Assembly (NCBI RefSeq): GCF_018069875.1 | Contig: NZ_JAGQDF010000003.1 | Location: 1-64,000 of the forward strand | Reading direction: 5' to 3' | DNA length: 64,000 nucleotides | Source of the DNA: Ideonella alba | GTDB taxonomy: Bacteria > Pseudomonadota > Gammaproteobacteria > Burkholderiales > Burkholderiaceae_C | Part shown: positions 16,422 to 26,456 of the stretch, piece by piece | Layout: each line of letters opens with the position of its first letter | How positions within the stretch are numbered: position 1 is the stretch's first letter | Program-made: the position numbers and the translations under genes | The notes under the pieces: generated by a model | What the model saw: the letters and a program-made list of their open reading frames with translations, nothing else | Databases searched by the model: none | What the model was told of the DNA's origin: nothing

Positions 16422-17468
16422 ATGTCTGAGGCCTTTGATCCCGCCGAGCACTCGCACCGGCGCCGCAATCCGCTGACCGGCCAGTGGGTGCTGGTGTCGC
16501 CGCACCGCGCCAAGCGCCCCTGGCAGGGCGCCCAGGAGGCGCTGGCCGAGCAGCGCCCGCCCGCCCACGACCCCGGTTGCTACCTGTGCGCCGGCAACAC
16601 CCGCGTCACCGGTGAGCGCAACCCCGACTACCGCGGTCCCTTCGTCTTCACCAACGATTTCGCTGCGCTGATGGCCGATGCGCCGCCGGCCCCTGAGGCG
16701 GCCGATCCGCTGTTCAGCACCCAGGTGGCGCGCGGCACCAGCCGGGTCATCTGCTTCTCACCAGACCACGGCCGCACGCTGCCCGAGCTGTCAGCCGCCG
16801 AGGTGCGCGCGGTGGTCGACACCTGGTGCGACCAGAGCGCCGAGCTGGGCCAGCGCTGGCGCTGGGTGCAGGTGTTCGAGAACAAGGGCGCGGCCATGGG
16901 CTGCTCCAACCCGCACCCGCATGGCCAGATCTGGGCCTGCGACTTCCTGCCCAACGAAGCCGCCACCGAGGACCGCGAACAGCGCGCCTACCGCGCCACC
17001 CACGGCCGCCCTTTGCTGCTGGACGTGGCCGAGCGCGAGGCCGGCGGCGCGCGCGTCGTGGTGCAGAACGCGCACTGGCTGGCCATCGTGCCCTTCTGGG
17101 CCACCTGGCCCTTCGAGACCCTGCTGCTGCCGCGCTTTGCCGTGCAGCGCCTGCCCGCGCTGACCGACGCGCAGCGCGACGACCTGGCCGCTGCCGTGCG
17201 CGCGCTGACCGCCCGCTACGACAACCTGTTCCAGTGCAGCTTCCCCTACTCGATGGGCTGGCATGGCGCGCCGTTCCAGGATGAGGGCGAACACTGGCAG
17301 CTGCACGCGCACTTCTACCCACCGCTGCTGCGCTCGGCCACGGTGCGCAAGTTCATGGTCGGCTTCGAGATGCTGGCCGAGGCGCAGCGCGACCTGACGC
17401 CCGAGCAGGCGGCCGAACGCCTGCGCGCTGTACCGGCCACGCATTTCCGCGAGGAGGCGCTGCGATGA
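16422..17468 (+). CDS. galT: Galactose-1-phosphate uridylyltransferase
   Basis: 348 residues, as in E. coli GalT. It exchanges UMP between UDP-glucose and galactose 1-phosphate in the Leloir pathway. The active-site His-Pro-His is in [11 protein letters not shown], with the nucleophilic second histidine at residue 167 (166 in E. coli). The early motif [20 protein letters not shown] and the metal-site pair CYLCAGN are also present. The start lies 3 bases after the alpha-galactosidase stop and the end overlaps galK by 4 bases, so the operon is translationally coupled. Confidence 0.96.
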
Positions 17469-18631
17469 GCACACCGCTGCAGCAGCGTGCGCTGGCCAGC
17501 TACTTCGGCGCCTTCGACAGCGCCCCGCAGGTGCTGGTGCAGGCCCCCGGCCGCGTCAACCTGATCGGCGAGCACACCGACTACAACGACGGCTTCGTGC
17601 TGCCCTGCGCGATCGACTTCCACACCGTCATCGCCATCGGACCGCGCACCGACGGCCGAGTGCGCGTGGTCGCCGCCGATTTCGGCCATGCGCTGGATGA
17701 CTTCGCGCTGGGCGACACCATCGCCCACGCCGGGCCGCGCTCGGCCTGGGCCGACTATGTGCGTGGCGCGGTGCAGATGGGCCTGCGCGAGGGCCTGCCG
17801 CTGCGCGGCGCCAACCTGGCGATCGCGGGCGATGTGCCGCAGGGCGCGGGCCTGTCGTCCTCGGCAGCGCTGGAGGTGGCAGTGCTGCAGGCGCTGAAGT
17901 CGCTGCTGGGCACGACCGCGCCCGCGCCGGCGCGCATGGCCCAGCTGGCGCAGGCCGCCGAGAACGACTTCGTCGGCTGCCGCTGCGGCATCATGGACCA
18001 GATGATCTCGGCATGCGGCCAGGCCGGACACGCCTTGCTGATCGACTGCCGCAGCCTGCAGACCCAGGCCGCGCCACTGCCGGACGACTTGGCGGTGATG
18101 ATCGTGCACTCGCGTGTGCGCCGCGGTCTGGTCGACAGCGCCTACAACGAACGCCGCCGGCAGTGTGAGCAGGCCGCCCGCGTGCTGGGCGTCAGCCACC
18201 TGCGCGACGCCACGCTGGCGCAGCTGCTGGCCGCCCATGGCCAGCTGGACGACACGGTGTTCCGGCGCGCCCGCCACATCATCACCGAGAACGCGCGCAC
18301 CCTGGCGGCACACCAGGCGCTCACCCGCGGCGACCTGCCCGAGATGGGTCGGCTGATGGCCGCCTCGCACGCGTCCATGCGCGACGACTTCGAGATCACC
18401 GTGCCGGCCATCGACGCGCTGGTGGCGCTGATGCAGCAGGCGATTGGCGCCGACGGCGGCGCGCGCATGACCGGTGGCGGCTTCGGCGGCTGCTGTGTCG
18501 GCCTGCTGCGCGAGGACCAGGCCGAGCGGGTGGCCGCCGCGATCGAGTCCGGCTACCGCAGCCCGGACGGGGAGCCGCCGCATGTCTGGATCACCCGCGC
18601 CGTCGACGGTGCCGGACCACTGTCCCTCTGA
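17465..18631 (+). CDS. galK: Galactokinase
   Basis: 388 residues, a GHMP-family kinase that makes galactose 1-phosphate from galactose and ATP. The galactokinase signature [19 protein letters not shown] is at about 30-48. The ATP-binding GHMP motif [16 protein letters not shown] is near 126-141. The C-terminal GHMP motif [14 protein letters not shown] closes the active site. Its ATG overlaps the galT stop by 4 bases and galE follows after 11 bases. The order galT-galK-galE behind an alpha-galactosidase indicates full use of released galactose. Confidence 0.96.
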
Positions 18632-18642
18632 CCGGGCGCCCC

Positions 18643-19662
18643 ATGCCACGTGTCCTGCTCACCGGTGCCACCGGCTACATCGCCTCCCACACCTGGCTCG
18701 CCCTGTGGTCCGCGGGCTTCGAGGTGGTGGGCCTGGATGACTTCTCGAACAGCTCGCCCGAGGTGCTGCGCCGCCTGGCCGAGCTGGGGGGCCGCGAGCC
18801 GGTCTTCGTGCAGGCCAGTGTCACCGACGCCGCCGCGCTGGACCGGGTGTTCGCCGAGCACGCGATCGATGCGGTGGTGCACTTCGCCGCCTTCAAGGCG
18901 GTGGGCGAGTCCGCCGCCGAGCCGCTGAAGTACTACGCCAACAACCTCGGCGGCCTGGTCACCACCTGCCAGGCCATGGGCCGCGCAGGCGTCAAGACCA
19001 TCGTCTTCAGCTCCAGCGCCACCGTCTACGGCACGCCACAGTTCCTGCCCTACACCGAGGCGCATCCGCTGGACGCAATGAACGTCTACGGCCGCACCAA
19101 GCTGATGGGCGAGCAGATCCTGCGCGACCTGGAAACCGCCGATCCCGCCTGGCACATCGCCTGGCTGCGCTACTTCAACCCGGTGGGTGCGCACGAGAGC
19201 GGGCGCATCGGTGAAGACCCGCGCGGCGTGCCCAACAACCTGATGCCCTATGTGCAGCAGGTGGCGGTGGGGCGGCGGGCCTTCCTGTCGGTGTTCGGTG
19301 GCGACTACGACACGCCGGACGGCACCGGCGTGCGCGACTACCTGCATGTGATGGACCTGGCCGAGGGCCATGTGGCGGCGCTGCGCTACCTGCTGGGGCA
19401 GCGCCAGTCGGTCACCGTCAACCTGGGCACCGGCGTGGGCTACAGCGTGCTTGATCTGGTGCGGGCCTTCGAGCGGGCGGCGGGCCGGCCCATCCCCTAC
19501 CAGATCGTGGACCGCCGACCCGGCGATCTGCCCAGCTACTACGCCGACGCCACCCGGGCGCGCGAGCTGCTGGGCTGGCAGGCCACGCGCAGCCTCGAGC
19601 AGATGTGCGCCGACGCCTGGCGCTGGCAGAGCGGCAACCCCGACGGCTACGCCGGCGCCTGA
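18643..19662 (+). CDS. galE: UDP-glucose 4-epimerase
   Basis: 339 residues, an extended short-chain dehydrogenase. It interconverts UDP-galactose and UDP-glucose and so regenerates the GalT co-substrate. The NAD-binding motif is GATGYIASH at 7-15. The catalytic Y149-x-x-x-K153 is in NVYGRTKLMG and matches the E. coli numbering exactly. The SSSATVYG motif supplies the catalytic serine region, and LRYFNPVGAH and GTGVRDYLHV are GalE hallmarks. It is the last enzyme gene of the gal operon; the regulator starts 32 bases later. Confidence 0.96.
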   Translation: MPRVLLTGATGYIASHTWLALWSAGFEVVGLDDFSNSSPEVLRRLAELGGREPVFVQASVTDAAALDRVFAEHAIDAVVHFAAFKAVGESAAEPLKYYANNLGGLVTTCQAMGRAGVKTIVFSSSATVYGTPQFLPYTEAHPLDAMNVYGRTKLMGEQILRDLETADPAWHIAWLRYFNPVGAHESGRIGEDPRGVPNNLMPYVQQVAVGRRAFLSVFGGDYDTPDGTGVRDYLHVMDLAEGHVAALRYLLGQRQSVTVNLGTGVGYSVLDLVRAFERAAGRPIPYQIVDRRPGDLPSYYADATRARELLGWQATRSLEQMCADAWRWQSGNPDGYAGA

Positions 19663-19694
19663 GAGAATCTCCGGGTCCGTCGCCGCAGCCCGTC

Positions 19695-20762
19695 ATGAGC
19701 CCCAACCGCCCTCCGTCACCCAGGTCGCGCCGCCCCACGATGACCGACGTGGCCAAGGCCGCAGGGGTCTCGCAGTCGACCGTCTCGATGGTGCTGAACA
19801 ACGCCAGCGGCGCGCGGCTGTCGGCCGAGACCCGCGCCCGCGTGCTGCAGGAGGCGATGGCGCTGGGCTACCGGCTGCCGCACCGCGACCCGTCCCTGCC
19901 CACGGGGCCGACCAAGCAGCAGCCGGTGATCGGCTACCTGGTCGACGAGATCTCGACCAGTCCGCACCCGGTGGTGAGCCTGGATGGCGCCCGGGACGCC
20001 GCCTGGGAGCAGGGCTGCGTGCTGCAGGTGGCCGTCACCCGCAGCAATCCCGAGCAGGAGAACGCCACCATTGCCGCGATGCTGAACCAGCCCGGTCTGG
20101 TCGGGGTGGTCTATTCGACGATCTTCACGCGTCCCGTCGAGGTGCCCGAGGCCCTGCTGGCCCGGCCCCTGGTGCTGCTGAACTGCCACGATGACCGGCG
20201 GCGTCTGCCGGCCGTGGTGCCCAGCGAAGTCGCCGGCGGCCACGCGGCCACCGAGTACCTGATCGCGCAGGGCCATACCCGGATTGCCTTCATCAATGGC
20301 GAGCCCTGGATGGAGGCCGCCCAGGACCGGTTGAAGGGCTACCGCCGCGCGCTGGCCACGGCCGACCTGCCCTTTGATCCGCAGCTGCTGCGCGAGGGCG
20401 ACTGGATGTCGGGCAGCGGCTACGAGCAGGCCCTGGCGCTGATGGCGCTGCCGCGCCCGCCCAGCGCCATCTTCTGCGCCAACGACCTGATGGCGCTGGG
20501 CGCGCTGGAGGCGCTCAAGCACCTGGGCCTGCGCGTGCCGGCCGATGTCTCGGTGATCGGCTACGACGATCAGGAGATCTCGCGCCACACCCACCCGCCG
20601 CTCACGACCCTGGTGCTGCCCAACGAGGAGATGGGCCGCACCGCGGTGGAGCTGCTGTTGTCGCTGGCGGCGGGCGAGCGCCTGCCGCGCGCGCTGACCA
20701 AGATCGCCGGGCCGGTGGTGGTGCGCGAGTCGGTGGCCGGGCCCGCCCGAACGGCGGGCTGA
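19695..20762 (+). CDS. LacI family regulator of the alpha-galactoside/galactose locus
   Basis: About 355 residues from ATG 19695. The N-terminal helix-turn-helix reads [21 protein letters not shown], followed by a periplasmic-binding-protein-like sensor domain ([10 protein letters not shown] to [15 protein letters not shown]). It most likely senses galactose or an alpha-galactoside and controls the operon in which it sits. Two features are unusual. The recognition helix has SMVLN where SRVLN is usual, and the hinge after LGYRLP reads HRDPSLPTG and lacks the common A-x-x-L-R segment that inserts into a CG-centred operator. This fits the AT-centred palindromes at 12914 and 13028. Confidence 0.88.
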
Positions 20763-20813: not shown

Positions 20814-21518
20814 TCAGCTCAGCGAGCCCACCGAGATGATCGGCCCGGTGGGCGCGCCGGAGGGCGAGCCGCCTTCCGGCTCGACACTGACCGCGAAGGC
20901 GGCGGTGTTCTGCAGCAGGCTGTCGCGCAGCAGCCGCGTCGAGCGGTCGCTGGCCACCAGGCCCAGCGAGCGCGGCGCACCCTGGGCGGGCACCGCCCAC
21001 AGCTCCAGCGCGCGGCCAGCGTCCACACTCAGCGTGTCCAGCGGACGCAGCACCAGGCCGCGGCCATCGGCGCTGACGCTGGCGACGAACCGGGCCTGGG
21101 ACAGCTGGGCCGACGTGACACTGGCGTTGGCATTGGGCATCAGCACCACCAGCACCGGCGCCGTGGGCGGCGGCGGCACCGCCAGCGCCACCGCCAAGGC
21201 CAGTGCGGCCGTGCTGGCCAGGCCGGCGGCCACCCGCCAGGGCAGCAGCCGCTGCCACCAGGGCGCAGGCGCGGCGGCGGAGGGCGATGGCCCGAACAGC
21301 CGCGCCTCGATCGCCTGCCACACGCGTGCCGACGGTGTCACCGGCGCGATGCTGCCGGCCAGCGGCAGCAGCGTCTCCTGCCAGGCGGCCACCGCGCGGC
21401 GCAGCGTCGGGTGGGCCGGCAGCAGCGCATCGAAGCGGCGTCGTGCGGCGCCGCGCAGCGTGCCCAGCACGTACTCGCAGGCCAGGCGATCGGCCAGATG
21501 GGGGCGGGAGTAGTCCAT
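20814..21518 (-). CDS. RskA-type anti-sigma factor
   Basis: 234 residues. The N-terminal cytoplasmic part (1-85) is a zinc-free anti-sigma domain (LADRLACEYVLGTLRGAARRR, then WQAIEARLFG). One membrane helix follows at about 94-114 (WRVAAGLASTAALALAVALAV). The periplasmic part resembles the RskA C-terminal domain (LVVLMPNANASVTSAQL, then ALELWAVPAQGAPRSLGLV). It should hold the sigma factor encoded directly upstream at the inner membrane until a signal releases it. The start lies one base after the sigma stop codon, which keeps the two in balance. Confidence 0.9.
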   Translation of the reverse strand: MDYSRPHLADRLACEYVLGTLRGAARRRFDALLPAHPTLRRAVAAWQETLLPLAGSIAPVTPSARVWQAIEARLFGPSPSAAAPAPWWQRLLPWRVAAGLASTAALALAVALAVPPPPTAPVLVVLMPNANASVTSAQLSQARFVASVSADGRGLVLRPLDTLSVDAGRALELWAVPAQGAPRSLGLVASDRSTRLLRDSLLQNTAAFAVSVEPEGGSPSGAPTGPIISVGSLS

Positions 21519-21519
21519 C

Positions 21520-22143
21520 TCAGGCCCCCGTCGGCTCGATCGCGCCGCTGCGTTCCAGGCAGCTGCGCAGGGCCTGCAGGCCGCGCCGCAGCCAGCTCTT
21601 GACGGTGCCCAGCGGCTGGCCCAGGTGCTGGGCCAGCTCGGGGTGGGTCAGGCCGTCGTAGAAGGCCAGCGCCAGGCTCTGCTGCTGTTCGGCACGCAGG
21701 CCGCCCAGGCAGCCGCGCACCGCGCCGTCCTCCAGCGCGCGCGCCAGCAGGTCCTGCGGGCCGGGGTGGTCGCTGGGCAGGGTGTCGACCAGATCGTCGG
21801 GGTCGTCGTCCAGGCCCCGTGTGGTGACCCACACCGGCTCGGCCTGCCGGCGGCGCAGGCTGTCGATCGCGCGGTGGCGGGCGATGGCGGTCATCCAGGT
21901 CAGGGGCTGGGCGCGCTGGGCGTCGAAGCTGGCCGCCGCGCCCCAGATCTTGACGAAGACCTCCTGCAGCAGGTCTTCGGCCTGCGCACGGTCGCGGTTG
22001 ATGCGCAGGATCACGCCCAGCAGCCGGCCGCCGACCGCGTCGTACAGCTGGCGAAAGGCCGCGCGGTCGCCCAGCGCCACGCGCGACAGCCACAGGGCCA
22101 GCTGCGCTTGCGCGGGCGAGGCGGGATCGGACAGCTCAGCCAT
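21520..22143 (-). CDS. ECF sigma factor, SigK-like
   Basis: 207 residues, an extracytoplasmic-function sigma factor. Region 2 includes AEDLLQEVFVKIWGAAASF and PLTWMTAIARHRAIDSLRRR for -10 recognition. Region 4 includes LALAFYDGLTHPELAQHLG and GTVKSWLRRGLQALRSCL for -35 recognition. It has two domains and no sigma-1. Pairing with an RskA-like anti-sigma protein is typical of SigK-type (ECF19) systems. Two copies of GCATC-N17-CGTA face this gene from upstream, which suggests self-activation. The divergent DUF4331 gene carries a third copy and is the likely first target. Confidence 0.93.
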   Translation of the reverse strand: MAELSDPASPAQAQLALWLSRVALGDRAAFRQLYDAVGGRLLGVILRINRDRAQAEDLLQEVFVKIWGAAASFDAQRAQPLTWMTAIARHRAIDSLRRRQAEPVWVTTRGLDDDPDDLVDTLPSDHPGPQDLLARALEDGAVRGCLGGLRAEQQQSLALAFYDGLTHPELAQHLGQPLGTVKSWLRRGLQALRSCLERSGAIEPTGA

Positions 22144-22231
22144 GGTGGGTCACCCGTGCAGCAACAGAGTGGGCGGATTCTAGGAACGGCATGGGGGCTC
22201 CAGGCGGTGGGTGGGTCGGGTCCAGGGTCTC

Positions 22232-22257
22232 TACGCAGCGACAGCCGCCGCAGATGC
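22232..22257 (-). promoter_or_regulatory. Candidate ECF promoter P1 for the sigma/anti-sigma operon
   Basis: On the minus strand GCATC (22253-22257) and CGTA (22232-22235) are separated by 17 bases. The same pair with the same spacing occurs twice more in this 278-bp region. Transcription would start about 80 bases upstream of the sigma start codon. The -35 core resembles the CATC of known SigK-type promoters. Confidence 0.55.
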
Positions 22258-22275
22258 ACCTGTCACGCGCCCGCG

Positions 22276-22301
22276 TACGCAGCAGCCCTGCGCCTGGATG
22301 C
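22276..22301 (-). promoter_or_regulatory. Candidate ECF promoter P2 for the sigma/anti-sigma operon
   Basis: On the minus strand GCATC (22297-22301) and CGTA (22276-22279) are again 17 bases apart. The copy is preceded by T and continues as CA after the -35 core (TGCATCCA). It lies 44 bases upstream of P1. Confidence 0.55.
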
Positions 22302-22336
22302 ATGCCCGATGGCGTGGCAGGGGGATCTTCGTGCCC

Positions 22337-22362
22337 GCATCTGCGCCGATGACCGGCTCGTA
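22337..22362 (+). promoter_or_regulatory. Candidate ECF promoter for the DUF4331 gene
   Basis: On the plus strand GCATC (22337-22341) and CGTA (22359-22362) are 17 bases apart, the same arrangement as the two minus-strand copies facing the sigma gene. The DUF4331 start codon lies 58 bases downstream of the -10 element, giving a leader of about 50 bases. Confidence 0.55.
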
Positions 22363-22420
22363 CAGAGCGCAGACCCGGCCAGACCGCCGGGTCCCACCCA
22401 CCACCGATCGAGGAGCCACC

Positions 22421-23956
22421 ATGTCCACTTCCACCCTGCGCCTGGCGCCCCTGGTTGCTGCCGCCCTGTGCGCCCTGAGCGTGCCGGCCGGCGCATCCAG
22501 CCACCGCGAAGCACCCTTCATCACCACCGCGCCCAAGGTCGACGGCACCGACTTCTACCTGTTCACCAGCTACGAGCCGGGCCGCTCGGACTTCGTCACG
22601 CTGATCGCCAACTACCAGCCACTGCAGGACGCCTACGGCGGCCCGAACTACTTCTCGATGGATCCGAACGCGCTGTACGAGATCCACATCGACAACAACG
22701 GCGATGCCCAGGAAGACCTGAGCTTCCAGTTCCGCTTCAGCAACCAGCTGGCCGGCGGCAAGGGCATCGCCTTGCCGGTGGGCTCCAAGAGCGTGCCCAT
22801 CCCGCTGGTGCAGGCCGGCCCGGTGGCCAATGTGGCCGATACCAACCTCAACGTGGCGCAGACCTTCACCGTCACGCTGATGCAGGGGGACCGCCGCAAG
22901 GGCACGGCCTGGACGGTCACCAACGCCGACACCGGCGCCAGCGTCTTCGACAAGCCGGTCGACAACATCGGCACCAAGACGATTGCCGACTACCCGGCCT
23001 ACGCGGCCAAGCACCTCTACAACATCAACCTGCCGGGCTGCGCCACCCCGGGACGGATGTTCGTCGGCCAACGCGCCGAAGGCTTCGCGGTCAACCTGGG
23101 CGTGGTCTTCGACCTGGTGCATGCGCCGGCCGCCGTCATCACCGACCCGTCCTACCTGGGCGCCGTACCCAACCCGATCGCCAGCAGCAACGTCACCACG
23201 CTGGCGCTGGAGATTCCCAAGGCCTGCCTGACCCGCCCGGGTGAGCCGGTGATCGGTGGCTGGACCACCGCCAGCCTGCGCCAGAGCCGCCTGCTCGAGG
23301 CCGATCCCAAGAGCGGCCTGCAGCGCACCGAGCGCGTGCAGGGCGACTGGGTGCAGGTGTCGCGCCTGGGCATGCCCCTGGTCAACGAGGTGGTCATCGG
23401 CCTGCCCGACAAGAACCGCTTCAACGCCTCGGCGCCCGCGGCCGACGGCCAGTTCGCCACCTATGTGACCCATCCGACGCTGCCCAAGCTGCTGGAGATC
23501 GCGCTGGGCCTGCCCGGCATCGCGCCCAAGAACTACCCGCGCACCGACCTGAGCACCACCTTCCTGACCGGCATCGCGGGCGTCAACCGGCCGGCGAATG
23601 TGGTGCCGTCTGAAATGCTGCGCCTGAACACCGCGATCCCGCCGGTGCCCTTCGCGCAGCAGAACCGCCTGGGCATCGTCGGCAACCTGCTGGCCGGCGG
23701 CAACGATCTGGCCGGCTACCCCAACGGCCGCCGGCCCAAGGACGATGTGGTCGACATCTCGCTGGTGGCGATGATGGGCGGTCTGTGCATGGCCAATGGC
23801 ACGACCGACGCACTGGGCTTCGGCGCCAAGTGCAAGCCGTCGGCGGTGCCGCTGGGCGCCACCTCGTTCAAGCTGCATGACGCGGTGGACCAGGCGGTCA
23901 CGCCCTTCCTGCCGGGCTTCCCGTACCTGAACACGCCCACGCCCGGCGCGATGTGA
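22421..23956 (+). CDS. Secreted DUF4331 family protein
   Basis: 511 residues from ATG 22421, with GAGGAG at 22410-22415 as ribosome-binding site. A signal peptide (1-26, ending VPAGASS) is followed at once by the family hallmark SSHREAPFITTAPKVDGTDFYLF. Further family-like segments are YFSMDPNALYEIHIDNNGDAQEDLSFQFRF, here 30 residues of acidic, asparagine-rich sequence, and FLPGFPYLNTP near the end. Members of the family are extracytoplasmic and have no established function. The acidic DNNGD stretch could bind calcium or another cation; that is inference. It is divergent from the ECF sigma pair and shares its putative promoter motif. A TPR gene and a HupE-like gene follow. Confidence 0.9.
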   Translation: MSTSTLRLAPLVAAALCALSVPAGASSHREAPFITTAPKVDGTDFYLFTSYEPGRSDFVTLIANYQPLQDAYGGPNYFSMDPNALYEIHIDNNGDAQEDLSFQFRFSNQLAGGKGIALPVGSKSVPIPLVQAGPVANVADTNLNVAQTFTVTLMQGDRRKGTAWTVTNADTGASVFDKPVDNIGTKTIADYPAYAAKHLYNINLPGCATPGRMFVGQRAEGFAVNLGVVFDLVHAPAAVITDPSYLGAVPNPIASSNVTTLALEIPKACLTRPGEPVIGGWTTASLRQSRLLEADPKSGLQRTERVQGDWVQVSRLGMPLVNEVVIGLPDKNRFNASAPAADGQFATYVTHPTLPKLLEIALGLPGIAPKNYPRTDLSTTFLTGIAGVNRPANVVPSEMLRLNTAIPPVPFAQQNRLGIVGNLLAGGNDLAGYPNGRRPKDDVVDISLVAMMGGLCMANGTTDALGFGAKCKPSAVPLGATSFKLHDAVDQAVTPFLPGFPYLNTPTPGAM

Positions 23957-24060: not shown

Positions 24061-25293
24061 ATGTCCGGACCTCTGTCACACCGCCTGATGGGCGCCGCGC
24101 TGGGCGTGCTGGCGGCGCTGTTCACCCCTGCCGCGCCGGCCGCGCCCAGGACCCCAGGCGACGACGCCGAGCTGCTGCAACAACTGCCCACCCGGCTGGG
24201 CGAGGCGCCGCCGCAGCGCGCACGCCTTCAGGCCCTGCGCGCCGACCCCACCCGGCTGCCGCTGGCGCTGGCACTGGCCCGCGAGGCGCTGGAGCGCGCC
24301 CGCACCCGCGGCGACCCCAGCGAGCTGGGCCCGGCCCAGGCCGCGCTGGCGCCCTGGTGGGGGCTGGCCGCGCCGCCCCCGCCGGTGCGGCTGCTGCGGG
24401 CCACACTGCGCCAGAACCAGCACGACTTCAGCGCCGCGCTGGCGGATCTGGATGCGCTGGCCGACGCGCCCGCGGGCGCCACGCCACCGGTGCCGCTGGC
24501 CGTGCGTGCCCAGGCCGAGTGGACCCGCGCCACGCTGCACCAGGTGCTGGGGAACTGGGCGCAGGCGCGCACCGGCTGCGAGCGCCTGGCCGCCGGGGTT
24601 GACCAGGCCCTGGGCCCCGCCACGGCCTGGACCGGCCAGGTCTGCCTGGCCGAACTCGACAGCCTGCAGGGGCGCGATCCGCAGGCTGCCCAGCGCACCC
24701 TGGCGTCGATCGCGCGGCGCGCGGCGGGCAGCGGGCTGGACACCGCCTGGCTGGCACTGGTCCGCGCCGAGCTGGCCGCCCGCCTGGGTTCGGCCGAGGC
24801 CGGCCCATTGTTCCGCGAGGCCACCGCCGGCTCGCCCGGCGTCTACGCCCTGGCGGCCCATGCCGACTGGCTGCTGGACCAGCGCCGCGAGCGCGAGGTG
24901 CTGCGCCTGCTGGCCGACCGCGCTGAGGCCGATGCGCTGCTGCTGCGCCTGGCGCTGGCGCAGCAGCGGCTGGGCGACCCCGCCGCGGCGGCCAGCATCG
25001 CGCAGCTCCAGGCCCGCTTCGATGCGGCCCGGCTGCGCCAGGACAACAGCCACGCCCGCGAGCTGTCGCGCTTCGAGCTGGAACTGCGCGGCCGCGCTTC
25101 AGTGGCGCTGGAACTGGCGCTGGGCCAGTGGCAGCTGCAGAAGGAGCCCGCCGACGCGCTGGCCGTGCTGCGCGCCGCGCAGGCGGCCGGCCGCCCCGAG
25201 GCCGCGGCCCCGGTGCGCGCCTGGGCGCGCGCCCAGGGGTTTGTCGATCGGCGCTGGCCGAGCGACCGGCCGCGTCCGGGGGTGGGTTCATGA
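24061..25293 (+). CDS. Secreted TPR/helical-repeat protein
   Basis: 410 residues. The N-terminus (MSGPLSHRLMGAALGVLAALFTPAAPAA) looks like a signal peptide. The remainder is made of alanine/leucine/arginine-rich helical repeats of TPR type, for example LALALAREALERARTRGDPSELG and later VYALAAHADWLLDQRREREVL. No catalytic motif is visible. It lies 104 bases after the DUF4331 gene and overlaps the following hupE-like gene (ATGA), so the last two are translationally coupled. The function is unknown. It probably serves as a periplasmic scaffold for the DUF4331 and HupE partners, which is inference. Confidence 0.75.
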   Translation: MSGPLSHRLMGAALGVLAALFTPAAPAAPRTPGDDAELLQQLPTRLGEAPPQRARLQALRADPTRLPLALALAREALERARTRGDPSELGPAQAALAPWWGLAAPPPPVRLLRATLRQNQHDFSAALADLDALADAPAGATPPVPLAVRAQAEWTRATLHQVLGNWAQARTGCERLAAGVDQALGPATAWTGQVCLAELDSLQGRDPQAAQRTLASIARRAAGSGLDTAWLALVRAELAARLGSAEAGPLFREATAGSPGVYALAAHADWLLDQRREREVLRLLADRAEADALLLRLALAQQRLGDPAAAASIAQLQARFDAARLRQDNSHARELSRFELELRGRASVALELALGQWQLQKEPADALAVLRAAQAAGRPEAAAPVRAWARAQGFVDRRWPSDRPRPGVGS

Positions 25294-26456
25294 GCGCGCT
25301 GGGCCGACCGTTGCGCCGGCTGGCGCTGGCCCTGTGGCTGGTGGCCTGTTCGGGGGTGGCGATGGCGCATGCGCCCAGCACCGCCTACCTGACACTCACG
25401 GTGGTGGGCGAGCAGGTGCAGCAACGCCTGGACGTGTCACTGCGCGACCTGGACCGCGAACTGGCGCTGGACGCAGACGACGATGGCCGCATCACCTGGA
25501 GTGAGCTGCGCCAGCGCCAGGCCGACCTCGACGCCTGGCTGCGGCCGGCGCTCGGCCTGGGCACGCCCGCCGGCGGCGACTGTGCGGCCGGCCCGCTCGC
25601 CCCGGTGCAGGTGGACGACCATGCCGACGGCACCCATGCCGTGCTGCGGCGCGACTGGCAGTGCCCCGCGGCGGCCGCTGCGCTGGTGCTGCAGTACCGC
25701 CTGTTCGCCCACAGCGACCCGGCGCACCGCGCCATCCTGCGCTGGGTGGGCGACCCGCCGGCCTCGGGCGCCGAGCCCATGCCGCTGGCCCCCGGCGATC
25801 AGCGGACCTGGACCCGGGCCGGTCAGCCCGCGGCGGGCGCGCCCGCCACGGCCGGCTGGGCGGCCTACATCGGCGAGGGCATCCACCACATCCTGATCGG
25901 CGCCGACCATCTGCTGTTCCTGTGGGTGCTGCTGCTGCCTTCGGTGCTGCGGGGTGGCGCGGCCGGCACCCCCGCACCGAATTGGCGACCGGTGCTGCTG
26001 GATGTGGCGCGCACCATCAGCGCCTTCACCGTGGCGCATTCGGTGACGCTGGCGGTGGCGATGCTGGGCGTGTTCAGCCCACCGACGCGCTGGGTCGAGT
26101 CGCTGATCGCGGCCAGCGTGGCGCTGACGGCGATCGACAACCTGCGGCCCTTCCTGCCGTCGCCGCGCTGGAAGATCAGCGCGCTGTTCGGCCTGGTGCA
26201 CGGCTTCGGTTTTGCCGGCGCGCTGAGTGACCTCGGGCTGGACCGGGCCGACCTGGCGCGCACCCTGGCGGGCTTCAACCTGGGTGTGGAGCTGGGCCAG
26301 CTGGGCGTGGTGGCGCTGTGGCTGCCGCTGGCCTGGTGGGGACACCGGCAGCCGGGCTACCGGCGCTGGGTGCTGGGCGGCGGCTCGGCGCTGGCCGGCG
26401 TGGTGGCCATGCTCTGGTGCACCGAGCGGCTGTTCGACCTGCAGCTGCTGGCCTGA
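25290..26456 (+). CDS. HupE/UreJ family membrane protein with extracytoplasmic N-terminal domain
   Basis: 388 residues from ATG 25290, overlapping the previous stop as ATGA. A signal peptide (ending SGVAMAHAPS) is followed by an extracytoplasmic domain to about residue 190. This domain contains DADDDGRITWSEL, a good EF-hand calcium loop, at about 65-77. The C-terminal half is the HupE/UreJ membrane domain with GEGIHHILIGADHLLFLWVLLL and GLVHGFGFAGALSDLGL, whose histidines suit metal passage. HupE/UreJ relatives move nickel or cobalt, but no urease or hydrogenase gene is nearby. The link with DUF4331 and the ECF pair suggests a metal or calcium-related envelope function. Confidence 0.82.
   Translation: MSALGRPLRRLALALWLVACSGVAMAHAPSTAYLTLTVVGEQVQQRLDVSLRDLDRELALDADDDGRITWSELRQRQADLDAWLRPALGLGTPAGGDCAAGPLAPVQVDDHADGTHAVLRRDWQCPAAAAALVLQYRLFAHSDPAHRAILRWVGDPPASGAEPMPLAPGDQRTWTRAGQPAAGAPATAGWAAYIGEGIHHILIGADHLLFLWVLLLPSVLRGGAAGTPAPNWRPVLLDVARTISAFTVAHSVTLAVAMLGVFSPPTRWVESLIAASVALTAIDNLRPFLPSPRWKISALFGLVHGFGFAGALSDLGLDRADLARTLAGFNLGVELGQLGVVALWLPLAWWGHRQPGYRRWVLGGGSALAGVVAMLWCTERLFDLQLLA

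Follow-up and report, generated by a model that had tools for sequence, protein, structure and literature searches.

We propose that three copies of a two-part element, GCATC and CGTA lying 17 bases apart, between the divergent genes of an ECF sigma factor and a DUF4331 protein are target promoters of this SigK-like, RskA-paired sigma factor, which would autoregulate its own operon and drive the DUF4331 gene. We give this reading, which is built on sequence comparison, a probability of about 0.88. The earlier note on this DNA had taken the copies for the DNA signal of the neighbouring sigma factor, serving autoregulation as well as expression of the DUF4331 gene, and comparison with relatives supports that proposal; the positions, strands and 17-base spacing it had given for the three copies proved exact. 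Within the window, i.e. the whole 64-kb stretch of DNA analysed, both strands together hold these three copies of GCATC-N16-18-CGTA and no further one. The sites and the genes around them are listed below, with scores from a matrix of 66 sites in other genomes; the ranking of the window sites as 1 to 3 is partly circular because those 66 sites were gathered by the same core.

20814..21518, minus strand: RskA-type anti-sigma factor, 234 aa (PF10099, E 7.9e-20; NF052375, 106.7 bits, cut-off 100)
21520..22143, minus strand: ECF sigma factor, SigK-like, 207 aa (PF04542 and PF08281; closest PDB entry SigK, 4nqw)
22232..22257, minus strand: promoter-like site, proximal, facing the sigma operon; exact GCATC-N17-CGTA, matrix score 19.5, rank 2 in the 64 kb
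22276..22301, minus strand: promoter-like site, distal, facing the sigma operon; exact GCATC-N17-CGTA, matrix score 23.5, rank 1 in the 64 kb
22337..22362, plus strand: promoter-like site facing DUF4331; exact GCATC-N17-CGTA, matrix score 13.0, rank 3 (rank 4 in the window scores 10.8)
22421..23956, plus strand: DUF4331 protein, 511 aa (PF14224, E 5e-144), the sole DUF4331 match in the genome
24061..25293, plus strand: 410-aa protein, no Pfam match, TPR-like by eye; second gene behind the DUF4331-facing site
25290..26456, plus strand: HupE/UreJ_2 membrane protein (PF13795); third gene behind the DUF4331-facing site

Each copy consists of two short elements at a fixed spacing and points at a gene, as ECF sigma-dependent promoters do. 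The CGTA of the proximal minus-strand site is separated by 88 bases from the ATG of the sigma gene, that of the plus-strand site by 58 bases from the ATG of DUF4331. The consensus of the matrix set is TGCATCC-N16-GCGTA, GCATC being preceded by T in 51 and followed by C in 62 of the 66 sites, and CGTA being preceded by G in 49. The distal site reads TGCATCC-N16-GCGTA and is the best fit of the three, while the DUF4331-facing copy is the weakest, as T replaces C after GCATC (rare in the matrix set, 3/66 sites) and TCGTA replaces GCGTA.

From this arrangement we infer direct recognition by the neighbouring sigma factor: RNA polymerase carrying it would read TGCATCC as -35 and GCGTA as -10 element. 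The two tandem copies would fire at sigma-rskA, leading to positive autoregulation together with more anti-sigma factor, and the single plus-strand copy would fire at DUF4331 together with the next two genes. In the resting state RskA would presumably hold the sigma factor, which an envelope signal may then set free. ECF promoters place the transcript start 6-9 bases after the -10 element, here CGTA; for sigma-rskA this predicts starts around 22223-22226 and 22267-22270, for DUF4331 around 22368-22371.

The sigma factor encoded at the locus resembles the SigK/RskA-type ECF sigma factors (ECF18/19): it possesses regions 2 and 4, an adjoining RskA-type gene and the two SigK cysteines. Its closest solved relative is SigK (4nqw; E 3.2e-27), and in the alignment to this entry both C133 and C183 of SigK fall on cysteines. 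The NCBIfam SigK model NF007228 is the top-scoring model with 154.8 bits, below the cut-off of 226, so that the protein is classed as SigK-like and not as SigK itself. The N-terminus of the DUF4331 protein looks signal-peptide-like by eye. Comparison with the PDB yielded no solved structural relative of DUF4331, the one match having E 0.52, and an AlphaFold model from two-sequence input (pLDDT 28) was set aside. DUF4331, the 410-aa protein and the HupE/UreJ_2 protein occur as a set in 9 of 89 sigma loci (L067, L159, L187, L189, L212, L214, L215, L224 and the window); L161 and L183 contain DUF4331 with no detected match to the latter two. On the far side of rskA, ahead of its end, positions 16422-20762 hold what look like galT, galK and galE and a regulator of the LacI type, as judged by eye.

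For the comparison with relatives, a sigma gene was called close at E up to 1e-50, which held in 87 of 399 family genomes, the window genome counted. The 89 sigma loci comprise 80 sigma genes with up to 9.7 kb each (76 of the 88 other places from the family search and 4 same-genus places), 8 named loci and the window; L068 duplicates L221, and L069 duplicates L172. Retention of the motif in relatives that keep the gene pair, on which the earlier note had staked its proposal, was found at the three other divergent sigma/DUF4331 loci (L067, L159, L224): the sigma-facing copy is present in all three and an exact DUF4331-facing copy in two, L159 being without it. Where rskA is followed by a co-directional DUF4331 gene, the gap between the two genes contains the motif in 5/5 loci. 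For DUF3455 genes behind rskA, one of whose proteins was verified by Pfam, this applies to 16/17 loci (12 with N17, 4 with N18), with L207 as the exception. The motif thus stands directly behind rskA in 21 of the 89 loci (N16-18; 17 with N17), 5 times before DUF4331 and 16 times before DUF3455.

An N17 copy lies at most 400 bases upstream of the sigma gene in 20/88 loci. Blind enumeration of pairs was also applied to 86 sigma genes, covering 250 bases upstream of each. GCATC-N17-CGTA did not come into the top 15, which were filled by protein-coding DNA of a conserved neighbour. In the relatives, the sigma gene often has as its upstream neighbour an opposite-strand gene that looks PurU-like by eye (39/87 loci). 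The pair TGCTG..GATGTTGCA, found upstream of sigma in 39/87 loci and considered as a second signal, was rejected, as it reads as opposite-strand coding sequence of the PurU-like gene. Likewise, GCATCCAT..CGTA with spacing 16, conserved 283-329 bases upstream of sigma in L071, L175, L192, L196, L216 and L217, may belong to the coding region of the adjacent gene.

The motif can also be reached from its presumed targets. Family-wide profile searches matched DUF4331 in 120 and DUF3455 in 170 of the 399 genomes, and the best 30 loci of each were analysed by blind enumeration of all 5-N8..22-4 pairs upstream of the gene, with no motif supplied. GCATC-N17-CGTA came out joint first for DUF4331, in 19/30 best loci, together with the overlapping CATCC-N16-CGTA; for DUF3455 it appeared in 14/30 best loci, one below the overlapping ATCCA-N15-CGTA (15). 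Across all spacings from 0 to 44, GCATC and CGTA were 17 bases apart in 19 DUF4331 regions, 16 apart in 3 and 30 apart in 1, with zero otherwise; the DUF3455 regions gave 14 at 17, 3 at 13, 2 at 41 and zero otherwise. Counting gene-facing copies up to 450 bases from the domain start in the best 30 loci each, the motif faced DUF4331 in 16/22 loci of close-sigma genomes versus 3/8 in other genomes, and DUF3455 in 11/14 versus 3/16. Copies facing away occurred at 4 DUF4331 loci of close-sigma genomes, where in L242 and L245 the sole copy near DUF4331 points away from it, and at 0 in other genomes; the corresponding numbers for DUF3455 are 1 and 2. Forward copies elsewhere across the 60 loci numbered 5. 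In close-sigma genomes, 14 of the 16 DUF4331 sites either do not share a contig with the sigma gene or are separated from it by 0.7 Mb or more, unlike many DUF3455 sites, which are near it. We read the sites as the switch of this sigma factor because they keep turning up ahead of members of the same families, also at such distances.

One might argue that only the sigma-facing copies work, the plus-strand copy being a remnant and DUF4331 being driven otherwise. The low matrix score of that copy, 13.0 compared to 23.5 and 19.5 with the next window site already at 10.8, and the missing exact copy in L159 would fit such a scenario. We nevertheless consider it unlikely, given that DUF4331-facing copies occur in 2/3 divergent loci, 5/5 rskA-DUF4331 gaps and 19/30 DUF4331 loci (overlapping sets), and that the variant GCATCTG of the plus-strand copy is also found before DUF3455 in L148 and L297 as well as among the internal sites described below.

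A different regulator, or an ECF sigma paralogue, could also be what reads the motif and would then co-regulate these genes. Six loci in five genomes carry the motif where a close sigma match is missing: one of these genomes, G084 (86% complete), yielded no sigma relative at 1e-25, and in G082 a sigma relative is cut by the contig end. Distant sigma relatives were detected in 13/14 genomes checked, and some of them are preceded by GCATC (N17 in L306 and L313, N18 in L312); the window genome holds four additional weak ECF matches. Set against this are the two-part form, the strict spacing, the orientation and the place before sigma and rskA, all of them traits of ECF promoters, and the higher frequency of the motif in genomes with a close sigma factor (27/36 versus 6/24 loci for both families pooled, relatedness uncorrected), so that we rate this explanation as quite improbable and keep the neighbouring sigma factor as the reader of the sites.

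A second type of -35 element was observed among the loci without GCATC: GAATC at the same spacing precedes 5 DUF4331 and 10 DUF3455 genes, as TGAATCC in all but one, and in L286 (DUF3455) GAATC has N18 (GAATC loci before DUF4331 or DUF3455: L250, L252, L254, L264, L267, L274, L275, L277, L281, L286, L287, L290, L292, L298, L300, L301). TGAATCC is also located upstream of six more distant SigK-like sigma genes (L304, L305, L308, L315, L025, L028), whereas none of 87 close-sigma loci has GAATC in the 400 bases before the sigma gene. This distribution suggests that the -35 element recognised is not the same in neighbouring sigma clades.

Considered by itself, the triple in the window is weak evidence, as it is not rare in shuffled sequence, and it is the comparison with relatives that carries the case. 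In 100 shuffles of the 64 kb, the N16-18 pattern had a mean of 0.69 copies and reached at least three in 2/100. When the composition of the 278-base region was shuffled, some 5-N14..19-4 pair occurred at least three times, both strands pooled, in 35/300 trials; random 278-base draws from the window did so in 118/300, where draws overlapping the region were skipped yet counted in the 300. Genome-wide, N16-18 gave 71 copies compared to 93 for a reversed control and hence no clear enrichment. Exact N17 gave 27 copies compared to 5, an excess on which we do not rely since codon structure makes the reversed control poor and nearly all inspected copies are in ORFs. Chance repetition in GC-rich DNA, to which the shuffles and the unenriched N16-18 pattern could be taken to point, is made very improbable, as an account of the motif, by its recurrence in numerous genomes beside genes of the same families.

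The genome scan for copies near gene starts, suggested in the earlier note, brought no larger regulon to light: besides the three sites there are 24 N17 copies, and of the 15 that were inspected, 14 fall within ORFs of 100 codons or more and 1 falls between ORFs, with no other convincing site among these 15. The copy L230/L317, situated between ORFs and ending 3 bases before an unrelated 288-codon ORF, was rejected as a regulon member; in L317 it fits the extended consensus in part, with C after GCATC, without T before GCATC and without G before CGTA. The DUF3455 model had no match in the window genome and none in 14 control genomes either, though 170/399 family genomes match. With one DUF4331 gene and no DUF3455 match, the predicted regulon of the window genome looks local.

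In many relatives, GCATC-N17-CGTA additionally lies inside the sigma gene itself, namely in 48/88 loci with the window and one duplicate counted, or 47/87 without the duplicate. Two examples are:

L010:1611-1636: internal copy of the motif
L011:214-239: internal copy of the motif

This internal motif corresponds to the His codon CAT and the Arg codon CGT seven residues further. CAT is present in 48/48 rows with CGT versus 9/40 others (Fisher 5e-16), and elsewhere in these sigma genes CGT accounts for 158/1674 Arg and CAT for 89/307 His codons. Among 38 columns with at least 10 T-ending codons, the linkage of CAT and CGT is by far the strongest (next 3e-6). On a tree built without the columns compared, no other synonymous state in the 14 columns is as clumped as CGT, which takes 11 changes versus 29.2 after shuffling (ratio 0.38; next 0.65). 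The lower GC3 of the CGT group (0.87 versus 0.91) hardly explains the linkage. In a test on independent pairs, CAT went with CGT in 5.2 of 6 (median p 0.06).

The same internal place is occupied by a different element in 72 more distant loci, which are mostly Alphaproteobacteria (32 of them Mesorhizobium). GAAAC-N17-CGT was found there in 62/72 loci from many genera and from Halomonas, and likewise in five other Burkholderiales loci (L017, L018, L019, L021, L023). At this place in the distant loci Lys is encoded by AAA in 65/72 and Arg by CGT in 65/72, compared to 108/414 Lys and 123/1401 Arg codons elsewhere in their sigma genes. Outside the gene, GAAAC-N17-CGT occurs 28 times near the rskA end and 2 times upstream of sigma versus 12 times elsewhere on the same strand in 741 kb. 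The ORF behind the external GAAAC site was looked up in six loci; five are fasciclin-like, as Pfam confirmed for two, while L078 yielded no such ORF. In the distant relatives L097 and L079, fasciclin genes lie behind the GAAAC site. Loci with an internal GCATC type have an external GCATC in 14 cases and an external GAAAC in 0, those with an internal GAAAC type in 1 and 21 cases, respectively; the agreement of internal and external -35 elements (p 4e-9) is uncorrected for relatedness and is largely a contrast of two clades. The internal residue is His in 49/49 and Lys in 67/67 loci, as the search patterns themselves imply. No internal site is present in 40/88 close and 10/72 distant loci, which, like the result on independent pairs, counts against a conserved internal promoter.

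We read the internal site as a conserved putative promoter within the sigma gene, which would transcribe rskA and what follows. The window sigma gene carries CGG and CGC at the two internal codons and hence has no internal site; it has the two upstream sites instead. Among the 88 loci, 47 have an internal site only, 19 an upstream site only (N17, 400 bases), 1 has both and 21 have neither. An upstream site therefore occurs in 1/48 loci with an internal site versus 19/40 others (p 2e-7, calculated without a tree). On 8 independent pairs, 0.0 went the same way, 3.4 the opposite way and 4.6 showed no difference (median p 0.25), so that mutual exclusivity of upstream and internal sites appears as a trend only.

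We are slightly inclined to believe that proteobacterial SigK-type sigma genes harbour a functional internal promoter ahead of rskA that is read by their own product, acts as a brake, imposes a codon demand and was lost in the lineage of the window. A released sigma factor would thereby raise its own inhibitor while the sigma level stays unraised, which amounts to a built-in brake. The demand of the DNA would set the residue, a GCATC -35 element calling for His (CAT) and a GAAAC one for Lys (AAA). In the window lineage, tandem upstream promoters would have taken over after loss of the internal site, resulting in positive autoregulation. If real, the internal site means that a promoter constrains codons and one residue of the very sigma factor reading it, and that moving one promoter flips the sign of autoregulation.

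As to novelty, ECF promoters that serve autoregulation and a divergently placed target are of a known type. What may be new is the placement of DUF4331 and DUF3455 in an ECF regulon, together with the internal promoter; a predicted motif for the ECF group may already have been published. In the collection of papers searched, none names DUF4331, and nine name DUF3455, of which eight concern fungi and one Delftia, judging by their titles. The analysis provides a concrete predicted promoter for a SigK-like, RskA-paired sigma factor of Burkholderiales, and it links DUF4331 and DUF3455, both of them uncharacterised protein families, to a single predicted regulon.

The closest known system is SigK-RskA of Mycobacterium tuberculosis (ECF18/ECF19), which shares with the window the adjoining RskA-type anti-sigma factor and the two cysteines and provides the closest solved relative. 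SigK has a CATC-like -35 element, and MPT70/83 of its system are secreted fasciclin proteins, while the predicted target in the window is DUF4331 (in relatives DUF3455 as well) and the window sigma factor remains below the SigK cut-off. SigK contains C133 and C183 and is autoregulated (PMC7509140). RpoT of Pseudomonas resembles the window in that a proteobacterial ECF18 sigma gene forms an operon with an anti-sigma gene, but in P. putida it is tied to toluene tolerance and an efflux pump, and the accessible section of that paper does not mention DUF4331 alongside RpoT (PMC3597554). The ECF26 factors of sulfite oxidation (RpoE4, SigE) likewise constitute sigma/anti-sigma pairs next to a target, and their -10 element CGTC resembles CGTA; they differ in the -35 element GGAAT and in their target enzymes (PMC6527743). 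For the internal site, Caulobacter sigV offers a parallel, since there, too, an ECF sigma promoter is placed in coding sequence; that promoter drives sigV from within the 3' end of the gene before it, whereas the putative internal site of the relatives lies within the sigma gene, ahead of rskA (PMC13171946).
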